From the NCBI GenBank assembly GCA_012031225.1, contig JAAUTZ010000034.1, forward strand, positions 1-36,428: DNA of 36,428 bases, in the 5' to 3' direction. Within the stretch, counting starts at the first letter, position 1; every line of letters starts with the position of its first letter. Both the position numbers and the translations under genes were made by a program. Under the pieces are notes generated by a model. It searched no databases, had not been told where the DNA came from, and worked only from the letters and a program-made list of their open reading frames with translations. The DNA is from Chloroflexaceae bacterium (GTDB taxonomy: Bacteria > Chloroflexota > Chloroflexia > Chloroflexales > Chloroflexaceae). Of the stretch, positions 12,823-17,832 are shown piece after piece.

Positions 12823-12972
12823 ATGAACAAAATATTACTCTAACACACAAAAATCTGAACACCGTAATATCTGAGATTGTAAGGATCAGCGTAGTTTCTC
12901 AATATTTCTTGATCAGCACGCACTGCGTGGATTGACTTCGATAGCATGATAGTACAAGGAAGGCATATTGCC

Positions 12973-13647
12973 ATGACCGCCATTAGCCCACCTATTCGCC
13001 TCGCTCCCGTATCCCAAACTGAACGCAAAGAACACGGCACGACCCGCCAGAGCATCCTCCATTTGCTGCGCCGCTATGGGCAACTCACCGCATCCGAATT
13101 GAGCGAGTATCTGCACATCGGCGCAGTTGGTGTGCGCCAACACCTGACCTTGCTCGAACGCGATGGACTCGTCGAGATCACGGGCTTGCGGCGCAGCATT
13201 GGCCGCCCAAGCTACCTCTACACCCTCACCCCAGATGCCGAGCAGCACTTCCCCAAGACGTATGACAGCCTCGCGCTTAGCACAATCAATTTTGTCTCCG
13301 ACAAAATCGGGGTGCGCGGGATCATCGAGCTATCTGAACGCTGGCGCATCGAGCAGTACAATCTGCTTGCGCCACAACTGCACAACCGAGTTGGGGCCGC
13401 CCGCGTGCAGTGCCTCGTCGAATTACTCAATCAGCAGGGCTATATGGCTGAGTACGAAGCTCATCCGAATGGCTCCTACACGCTCAGTAAATATAATTGC
13501 CCAATAGATTGTGTCGCCCGCCAATACCCGCAACTCTGCCAGCAAGAGATCGTCCTCTACGAACAACTGCTGCACGCTACCGTGCAACGCGAAGCCTCGC
13601 TGATGCAGGGCAGTTGCTGCTGCCGCTACCGCATCACCTTCGCCTAG
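12973..13647 (+). CDS. SufR-like Fe-S-sensing transcriptional regulator
   Basis: The 224-residue protein has an N-terminal winged helix (residues 24-90: RQSILHLLRRYGQLTASELSEYLHIG, then VRQHLTLLERDGLVE and GRPSYLYTLT). Its C-terminal domain carries cysteines like those of the cyanobacterial suf repressor SufR. Cys176 and Cys189 keep the C-x12-C spacing of SufR. The third family cysteine falls on Thr203 and is missing. Cys180 and a Cys215-Cys217 triplet (GSCCCRYRI) could supply substitute ligands. It probably senses Fe-S or redox status and may control the sodA gene that follows. The ATG at 12973 has AAGGAAGG ten bases upstream; an in-frame ATG at 12946 has none. No suf genes are in view. The regulator fold is certain; the cluster is an inference. 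Confidence 0.82.
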   Translation: MTAISPPIRLAPVSQTERKEHGTTRQSILHLLRRYGQLTASELSEYLHIGAVGVRQHLTLLERDGLVEITGLRRSIGRPSYLYTLTPDAEQHFPKTYDSLALSTINFVSDKIGVRGIIELSERWRIEQYNLLAPQLHNRVGAARVQCLVELLNQQGYMAEYEAHPNGSYTLSKYNCPIDCVARQYPQLCQQEIVLYEQLLHATVQREASLMQGSCCCRYRITFA

Positions 13648-13929: not shown

Positions 13930-14544
13930 ATGCCATTTGAATTGCCCGCATTGCCCTACGCTGAAGATGCACTCGAACCACACATTGATGCCCGTACCAT
14001 GAACATCCACCACACCAAGCACCACAATGCCTACGTGACCAACCTGAACAAAGCCCTCGAAGGGCACGCTGAGTTGGCTGACAAAAGCCTCCCAGAGTTG
14101 CTCGCCAACCTCGACAGCCTGCCCGAAGCGATCCGCGCTGCCGTCCGCAACAATGGCGGTGGGCACGCCAATCACACCCTGTTCTGGGAGATTATGGCAC
14201 CCGGCGCAGGCGGCGAGCCGACAGGCGCACTAGCTGAGGCGATCACCACGACCTTCGGTAGCTTCGATGCCTTCAAGGAGACCTTTGCGAAAGCGGCAGC
14301 CACCCGCTTCGGCAGTGGCTGGGCATGGCTCGTAGCCCACCCCGACGGGTCGCTCGAAGTAACCAGCACGCCGAATCAAGATACACCCGTGATGGACGGC
14401 AAGCAGCCAATTCTAGGGCTGGACGTGTGGGAGCATGCCTACTACCTGCACTACCAAAACCGCCGCCCCGATTACGTGAGCGCGTGGTGGAATGTCGTCA
14501 ACTGGACCAAAATCAACGAACTCTACACTACAGCCCGTAGCTAA
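13930..14544 (+). CDS. sodA: Superoxide dismutase, Mn type
   Basis: The enzyme converts superoxide to hydrogen peroxide and oxygen in the cytoplasm. The 204-residue product has the four metal ligands His27 (NIHHTKHH), His82 ([12 protein letters not shown]), Asp165 and His169 ([18 protein letters not shown]). The GGGHANH block and Gln150 in the PNQDTPVM block are the pattern of manganese enzymes. Iron-type enzymes carry the second-shell glutamine on the earlier helix instead. It lacks a signal peptide. A good AAGGAGAA lies seven bases before the ATG. It follows the SufR-like regulator on the same strand with its own extended -10 promoter, and it precedes the Met-rich phasin-like gene. The context suggests an oxidative-stress neighbourhood, which would suit a phototroph exposed to oxygen. 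Confidence 0.97.
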
Positions 14545-14582: not shown

Positions 14583-14605
14583 AACCCTGTTGGAGGTTGA
14601 TGTAA

Positions 14606-14639
14606 CTGACAGGGTGATTCCAACGTTATAATAACGTTG
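14606..14639 (+). promoter_or_regulatory. Promoter with overlapping 19-bp palindromic operator
   Basis: TATAAT (14627-14632) lies inside a perfect palindrome CAACGTTAT-A-ATAACGTTG (14621-14639). A CTGACA 15 nt upstream (14606-14611) may act as the -35. A dimeric repressor bound here would block the -10 directly. The target is the phasin-like gene at 14726, whose leader is then about 85 nt. Confidence 0.6.
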
Positions 14640-14725
14640 TAGGATAAATACGATACCACAATGATGGCAAACACGTAGTTTTTACGGCTAGCGATTAGCC
14701 CAAGCAATGCAGGAGGAGCAGACTC

Positions 14726-15226
14726 ATGACGATGACTGATTGGAACACCCGTGCGAACGACATGGTGAAGATGTGGACTGAATCCCAGAACAAGATGTGG
14801 GAAAACTGGGTCAGCACGATGAAGGGCATGGGCAGCATGGGCACCGCCCCGAATGGCCGCGAGACGTGGATGAAGACCGTCGAGGTGTGGCAGGACTCAG
14901 TCAAGACCGCCCTTGACGCACAGGTAACGTGGACGCAGTTCTGGACCGAAAGCATGGCCTCGATGAGCGGCTCGTCCAAGCAGATGAACGACTGGTCGGC
15001 GCAGACGATGGAAATGACCAAGCAGTGGACGGAAGCCCAGAACAAGATGTGGAACGACTGGTTTGAGTCGCTGAAGACGATGGACACGGCAGCCATGATG
15101 AAGAGCTTCAACCCAGATGAAATGATGAAGCTGATGCAGACATGGCAAGACTCCGCCCGCAAGATGATGGAAACCCAGATGGAAATGGTGCGCTCGATGA
15201 CCAGTGCCCAGATGAAGGGCGAATAA
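14726..15226 (+). CDS. Phasin-like Met/Trp-rich duplicated protein
   Basis: This is a 166-residue helical protein with 27 Met, 13 Trp and no Cys. It is made of two copies of one unit: residues 4-87 and 88-166 align with an offset of about 84. For example, KMWTESQNKMWENW matches KQWTEAQNKMWNDW, and VWQDSVK matches TWQDSAR. The amphipathic helices resemble phasins or PHA-synthase-associated proteins that coat polyhydroxyalkanoate granules. This is an inference from composition, not a family match I can confirm. A strong AGGAGGAG lies seven bases before the ATG at 14726. The gene has its own promoter-operator and ends in a U-tract terminator, so it is a tightly controlled single-gene unit beside sodA. 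Confidence 0.7.
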   Translation: MTMTDWNTRANDMVKMWTESQNKMWENWVSTMKGMGSMGTAPNGRETWMKTVEVWQDSVKTALDAQVTWTQFWTESMASMSGSSKQMNDWSAQTMEMTKQWTEAQNKMWNDWFESLKTMDTAAMMKSFNPDEMMKLMQTWQDSARKMMETQMEMVRSMTSAQMKGE

Positions 15227-17200: not shown

Positions 17201-17254
17201 GCTTCGCCGTGCCATCGGCATCGCGCTGCTGATTCGTGTTGTATCGAGCGAAGC
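17201..17254 (+). promoter_or_regulatory. Structured 5' leader of rpsF
   Basis: GCTTCGC (17201-17207) pairs perfectly with GCGAAGC (17248-17254) and encloses a small TGCC-ATC-GGCA hairpin at 17210-17220. rpsF leaders in many bacteria bind S6:S18 for autoregulation. Whether this one does is an inference from position only. Confidence 0.4.
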
Positions 17255-17274
17255 ATACCCAGAGGAGGACTCCC

Positions 17275-17832
17275 TTGCGCGTTCGTAGCTATGAATTGAT
17301 GTTTATTGTTAGCCCCCTGCACGCCGATGATGATAGCATTACCAACATCATCAACCGCGTGTCCCAAACGATTGAAGCCGAAGGCGGCGAAATCACGTCC
17401 GTCAATCACAACCCCCCGTGGGGGCGGCGGCGGCTTGCCTATCCAATCCGTGCCTATGCCAGTGGTGAAGCCAGCCGCCGCAACTTCACCGAAGGCTTCT
17501 ATGTGCTGATGCACTTCAACCTCGAATCTGCAAAGGTCTTGACCGTAGATCGAGCGATCCGCTTCATTGACCCGATCCTGCGCCACCTGCTCACCATTAT
17601 CACCGATACCCCGACTGCCAACAGCGACAGTGATGACAGTGGCGGCAAGGCATGGGATAGCACCCCCGCCGATCTCGACGGCGACGATGATGATCTCGAC
17701 GACGACGATGATGATCTCGACGATGACGATGATGATCTCGACGACGATGAGGACGATGACAATGGCGACGGCGACGATGATCCCGATGACGAAGATGAAC
17801 TAAGCGTTGCCGAACACGCCACCGCCAATTAA
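17275..17832 (+). CDS. rpsF: Ribosomal protein S6 with Asp-rich C-terminal extension
   Basis: S6 binds S18 and 16S rRNA in the small-subunit platform. The S6 fold occupies residues 1-105 (RVRSYELMFIVSPLH at the start, then NPPWGRRRLAYPIR and GFYVLMHFNLES). It is followed by an unusual tail to residue 185 that is almost entirely Asp from residue 133 on and contains DDDDDLD repeats. The usual length is about 95-135 residues. The start is a TTG at 17275 with AGGAGG at 17263-17268, correctly spaced. The alternative 13 codons upstream has no ribosome binding site. ssb follows after a structured 149-nt gap, as in the common rpsF-ssb-rpsR order, but rpsR and rplI are absent here. The tail may be a protein-binding or RNA-repelling appendage; its function is unknown. 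Confidence 0.93.
   Translation: MRVRSYELMFIVSPLHADDDSITNIINRVSQTIEAEGGEITSVNHNPPWGRRRLAYPIRAYASGEASRRNFTEGFYVLMHFNLESAKVLTVDRAIRFIDPILRHLLTIITDTPTANSDSDDSGGKAWDSTPADLDGDDDDLDDDDDDLDDDDDDLDDDEDDDNGDGDDDPDDEDELSVAEHATAN
17680..17742 (+). repeat. Three 21-bp tandem repeats coding Asp-rich heptads
   Basis: Units at 17680-17700, 17701-17721 and 17722-17742 differ at only one or two bases, all keep GACGATGATGATCTCGAC and lie in frame within rpsF (residues 136-156). Period 21 nt, so copy-number changes would keep the reading frame. Confidence 0.9.

Follow-up and report, generated by a model that had tools for sequence, protein, structure and literature searches.

The stretch of DNA analysed here, referred to as the window, spans 36,428 nucleotides of a Chloroflexaceae genome, and the site under study lies in a 181-bp gap between two plus-strand genes. 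The upstream gene (13930..14544) encodes an Fe/Mn superoxide dismutase (sod; PF00081 and PF02777), and the downstream gene (14726..15226) encodes a phasin-like protein of 166 aa, whose match to Phasin_2 (PF09361, E 0.0009, 19.9 bits) falls below the Pfam cut-off of 24.9. A gene for a SufR-like winged-helix regulator precedes sod on the same strand (12946..13647; 110.3 bits against TIGR02702, cut-off 178.8), and elsewhere in the window, at 17236-17832, is a gene encoding a ribosomal protein S6 whose C-terminal tail is long, acidic and rich in Asp. Within the gap is the palindrome CAACGTTAT-A-ATAACGTTG (in full, CAACGTTATAATAACGTTG; 14621-14639, no strand assigned), in which two 9-bp arms flank one central A. 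The initial annotation had described a perfect 19-bp palindrome that encloses TATAAT and carries two copies of AACGTT, a description that holds in every part, the hexamer lying at 14627-14632 and both AACGTT copies being present. The interval originally reported, 14606-14639, begins at CTGACA (14606-14611, plus strand), a -35-like hexamer that becomes CTGGCA in a genome of the same genus (G001); a promoter scan requiring a spacer of 16-18 bp did not report the CTGACA/TATAAT pair, whose spacer is 15 bp. CTGACA overlaps a further short element, GTAACTG (14602..14608, plus strand). This GTAACT element is flanked by an inverted repeat, ACCCTGT (14584-14590) and ACAGGGT (14609-14615), which is mostly kept in G001 as CCCTGT and GCAGGG and which folds, together with the palindrome, as two hairpins.

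A genome-wide scan, as the initial annotation had proposed, shows no further copy of the palindrome at up to three mismatches in the genome's own assembly (4.21 Mb in 205 contigs, 97% complete). In 358 kb of this genome, a sample of 20 stretches plus the window, a perfect palindrome whose arms are 9 or longer and whose spacer is 0-1 occurs four times, against about 4.8 expected from first-order Markov sequence (10 replicates), and two of the four lie in the window itself. This chance-level density implies some 50 such palindromes per genome, so that length alone is unremarkable and the palindrome is, in itself, ordinary. For the intergenic 181 bp taken by themselves, the Markov model gives such a palindrome a probability of 0.00145. 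Against accidental symmetry, the sample has 67 TATAAT hexamers on both strands, and apart from the present one none is the centre of a palindrome with 9-bp arms and a single one attains arm 7; this narrower test was chosen post hoc with the site already in view.

Comparison with relatives also bears on the symmetry. At the corresponding place in G001, whose phasin is 87% identical, stands TAGCGTTATAATAGCGTTG, in which three of the nine pairs are broken while TATAAT and GTAACT are retained, although this loss of symmetry is a single comparison with a single same-genus genome. Identity between the two genomes is 16/19 (84.2%) in the palindrome, close to the 81.8% of the whole intergenic stretch, and 88% from the palindrome to the start codon. 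Dyad symmetry kept in close relatives, the mark of a conserved local-repressor operator, is thus not found. Among the 41 phasin promoters that could be anchored as described below, an inverted repeat with an arm of at least 6 over the -10 is present in the window's promoter and in none of the 40 others. Across 150 genomes, matches to the palindrome at up to two mismatches occur in five, the window's own included; the matches in the remaining four are all away from phasin genes, three falling within ORFs of at least 224 aa and one overlapping a 392-aa ORF at its end, and these matches, at unrelated places, were rejected as a conserved site. The suggestion that a dimer bound to the palindrome would block transcription is not supported: three pairs are broken in G001, the genome has no second copy, and none of the 40 other promoters has an inverted repeat there. 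The palindrome is real, but its dyad symmetry is most likely accidental, having arisen around a probable -10 element.

That the hexamer is such an element, as the initial annotation also proposed, is very probable. Phasin homologues are found in 47 of 100 genomes, the window's own counted, and 49 phasin upstream regions from 46 genomes were examined, 29 from loci of the homologue search and 20 from a further locus set; locus L015 (G034) was excluded because its contig begins 42 bases upstream, and weak or paralogous matches in G018 and G023 are outside the 49. A TANNNT hexamer stands 25 or 26 bp after GTAAC in 41 of the 49 regions, the eight unanchored regions, some of them paralogues, being L007, L008, L009, L027, L028, L053, L054 and L055. 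The TATAAT of the window (14627..14632, plus strand) lies 25 bp downstream of GTAACT, as in the homologues, and is unchanged in G001; in sequence and in its conserved location ahead of the gene it has the form of a sigma-70-type -10 element, and from its position a transcription start is expected at 14638..14641 on the plus strand.

The same comparison reveals what the GTAACT element is part of. In most of the related genera examined the phasin promoter typically reads GTAACT-N4-TGTAACC, with two half-sites 11 bp apart, and a weak -10 (TACGCT or TACCCT, for example) stands 9 bp past the second GTAAC. Across the 41 family genomes the tandem motif GTAACTNNNNTGTAACC (GTAACTN4TGTAACC) has 36 sites, spread over 32 genomes, against two for a control; phasin genes account for 27 of these sites, each in a different genome. 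Two half-sites with an 11-bp period, the layout of an MtrA/WalR-type box, are present in the family homologues but not at the window site. There, the first half-site, intact in the window's genome, G001, G011 and the promoters of family f4, remains at its 25-bp distance from the -10, the place of the second half-site (14613..14617, plus strand; complete in 11 other genera) is occupied by GGTGA, with one of five matches to GTAAC, and the -10 is the consensus. This combination is not peculiar to the window. Where the second half-site is complete (30 promoters), the -10 always matches the consensus at three of six positions, where it is degenerate (10 promoters) the -10 always matches at five or six of six, and the single promoter with an intermediate second half-site (four of five) has a six-of-six -10. 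By genus, 11 have a complete second half-site, all with three-of-six -10 elements, and four degenerate genera plus one intermediate genus all have five or six of six; since the genomes are related, so that counts are not independent, and since anchoring required TANNNT, these figures are a strong pattern and not a clean test of a trade-off.

On our preferred reading, held with moderate confidence, the site represents the phasin promoter's -10 region with accidental symmetry superimposed on it, the functional parts would be TATAAT at 14627-14632 and the upstream GTAACT half-site at 14602, and dependence on an activator has probably been reduced. In the relatives, the tandem half-sites, one helical turn apart, would occupy about -38 to -21, ahead of a weak -10. 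This is the position occupied by a class II activator such as PhoB, and the geometry would fit activation by a response regulator of the OmpR/PhoB family that substitutes for the -35. In the window's genus, with the second half-site degenerate and the -10 at consensus, transcription is probably less dependent on such an activator, or constitutive. We read the phasin promoter in this genus, from the sequence comparison, as one that may have been released from an ancestral activator.

The best rival to accidental symmetry is a direct repeat at the -10. The sequence carries an imperfect 11-bp direct repeat, CAACGTTATAA / TAACGTTGTAG (14621..14642, plus strand), which overlaps the -10 and could form a genus-specific operator, YARCGTTATAA-TARCGTTGTAG with an 11-bp period, to which a repressor might bind in tandem over the -10; the palindrome would then be a side effect of the repeat, since AACGTT is self-complementary. 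The repeat is common to both species, with 8/11 matches in the window's genome and 9/11 in G001, the two species differing by an identical A/G change in each copy, and no 7-4-7 repeat over the -10 of the remaining 39 anchored promoters exceeds 5/7. A 9/11 repeat at period 11 has a probability of 0.012 in random sequence resembling the intergenic stretch of G001, but the 8/11 repeat has a chance probability of 0.09 in the window's own stretch, and the genome sample contains many period-11 repeats of 9/11 or better (334 positions against 286 expected). The repeat is, moreover, known from two species only and may be a relic of neutral duplication, and we consider such an operator unlikely.

Less probable still is a dimer operator peculiar to this species, at which PhaR or some other local repressor of phasin would bind. 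The palindrome does share certain features with the PhaR site YTKNTGCRNYGCANMAR of Ralstonia, where PhaR is described as repressing phaP1 by binding around its promoter (PMC12849132): a phasin gene follows, the window's genome encodes a PhaR-family protein (PF07879, 86.7 bits, G000:C1:14541-14708), and a palindrome with a one-base centre, perfect in its symmetry, is centred on TATAAT. However, the window's palindrome lacks a TGC...GCA core, its best internal alignment to YTKNTGCRNYGCANMAR has nine mismatches, a poor motif match on which it was rejected as a PhaR site, it has no second site in the genome, and the symmetry is gone in G001, which likewise has PhaR. A scan of the whole window for the PhaR motif stayed at chance level (nine found, 7.46 expected), and exact copies of the core TGCRNYGCA lie in five of the 49 regions upstream of phasin genes, at varying positions. 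Since PhaR is encoded in 37 of 41 family genomes, a genus-specific PhaR behind a genus-specific site was rejected. Nor is PhaR a likely binder of the GTAAC box, given that five sites of the box-plus--10 type described below occur in G021, a genome of 100% completeness without a PF07879 match. The PhaR gene of the window's genome (locus L064, G000:C1:14277-15417) is next to an ORF that resembles, by eye, a granule-associated protein.

An RNA stem-loop in transcripts reading through from sod, serving 3'-end formation or attenuation, is very improbable. All three changes in G001 preserve pairing as G-U, although by a hand estimate three transitions would all do so about one time in eight by chance. 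A 67-nt stretch of the window that includes the palindrome hairpin and a second hairpin folds better than 200 of 200 shuffles (z -3.29), but the fold of its G001 counterpart is ordinary (z -1.06, 32/200 shuffles as good), and the z-scores are -1.53 (14/200) for the window's palindrome hairpin alone and -1.18 (26/200) for the whole intergenic stretch. There is also no T-run after the hairpin, and the stretch overlaps a conserved promoter; the RNA hairpin was set aside as weak on the shuffle tests.

Least credible is the initial suggestion of a SufR-type operator, to which the SufR-like protein, encoded 1.0 kb upstream, would bind. Although the palindrome has the CAAC and GTTG ends of the cyanobacterial site, given as CAAC-N6-GTTG (PMC13421787), and such a gene is nearby, the idea was rejected on a spacing of 11 rather than 6, on a protein that scores below the SufR cut-off (110.3 against 178.8 bits) and on a site that is not conserved, its CAAC end being TAGC in G001 even though a SufR-like gene sits at the corresponding place there. 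No SufR hit above the TIGR02702 cut-off was obtained in any of five genomes searched; in G011 sod and the phasin gene are adjacent, with no SufR-like match on a contig that begins about 1.7 kb before sod.

The promoter architecture, with its GTAAC boxes, extends to genes other than phasin. The pattern GTAAC-N6-GTAAC-N9/10-TANNNT has 160 matches in 40 of 41 family genomes, against 11 for the reversed control, the pattern having been written after the phasin sites were seen and the 160 matches including them; without the -10, GTAAC-N6-GTAAC is not enriched in three complete genomes (40 sites, 47 in the control). A longest-ORF rule was applied to 46 non-phasin box places, 40 of them hand-picked and six from a second set, and nine further non-phasin loci were judged by eye only. 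An ORF follows the box at 40 of the 46 places and none does at six, and at five of the 46 the box lies under an ORF of at least 120 aa. The 40 downstream ORFs fall into clusters of 9, 9, 9, 5, 2 and 2 plus four singletons. Pfam searches with eight cluster representatives identified isocitrate lyase (PF00463, E 1.4e-102), a GNAT acetyltransferase (PF00583), a DUF3141 protein (PF11339), a family we take to be related to PHA synthases, one DUF4032 protein and, below cut-off, two PhaE-like proteins (PF09712, E 5.7e-5 and 3.6e-4) and a receiver domain (PF00072); one of the eight had no hit. The GNAT protein of the box set stands beside a thiolase-like gene.

The window's own genome has four sites of box plus -10, all with counterparts in G001, upstream of isocitrate lyase (G000:C10:11653-11683), the DUF3141 protein (G000:C22:34252-34283), the receiver-domain protein (G000:C80:2529-2560) and a small protein without a Pfam hit (G000:C154:4338-4368). 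At the PhaE-like gene neither this genome's locus nor the sister locus has a tandem box, only single GTAAC words, which counts against a regulon complete in every species. The chances seem to us evenly balanced that these genes form a family carbon-storage regulon, comprising phasin, PhaE-like, isocitrate lyase, GNAT, DUF3141 and receiver-domain genes, under an MtrA/WalR-like regulator acting through GTAAC-N6-GTAAC boxes at an activator position, with a trade-off between half-site and -10 and with the phasin-like gene of the window as an escaped member.

Two further observations concern individual box sites. In genus g10 a promoter of the form GTAACC-N4-TGTAACTTCATGTGGTATATTTCACA is closely conserved among L217 (G038), L221 (G029) and L129 (G033); a gene of the GNAT cluster follows it in L217, and no ORF was picked in L221. 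In G029, identical GTAAC box sites stand on opposite strands 8 kb apart (G029:C1:2052607-2052638 and 2060954-2060985), perhaps within a duplicated or mobile element.

Tandem boxes resembling this one are described for response regulators. The predicted consensus for Streptomyces MtrA is given as GTAACCNNNNNGTAACC (PMC12323332), and both its GTAAC half-site and its 11-bp period recur in the relatives' box. The window retains a single half-site, however, and the genes identified here are mostly carbon-storage or acetate-related. The WalR/VicR box, given as TGTWAH-N5-TGTWAH or TGTWAHA-N4-TGTWAHA (PMC4168254), is a direct repeat, as is the 7-4-7 box of the relatives, and sites starting TGTAAC fit its six-base consensus, although the first half-site in the relatives often begins with C or A. 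The targets described for WalR are cell-envelope genes, unlike the genes here. For Chloroflexus aurantiacus, the genome paper reports higher isocitrate lyase activity on acetate (PMC3150298), and neither 'phasin' nor 'polyhydroxy' occurs in its text. Among the listed titles and abstract openings from open-access literature, none deals with the control of these genes in this group.

A comparison that began with a palindrome thus exposes a strict promoter architecture at several carbon-storage and glyoxylate-cycle genes in one family of the Chloroflexales, and the conserved set of GTAAC promoters is an unexpected result of that analysis. A -10 that is strong where the second half-site is degenerate and weak where it is complete would represent a natural case of a promoter shifting its dependence on an activator.
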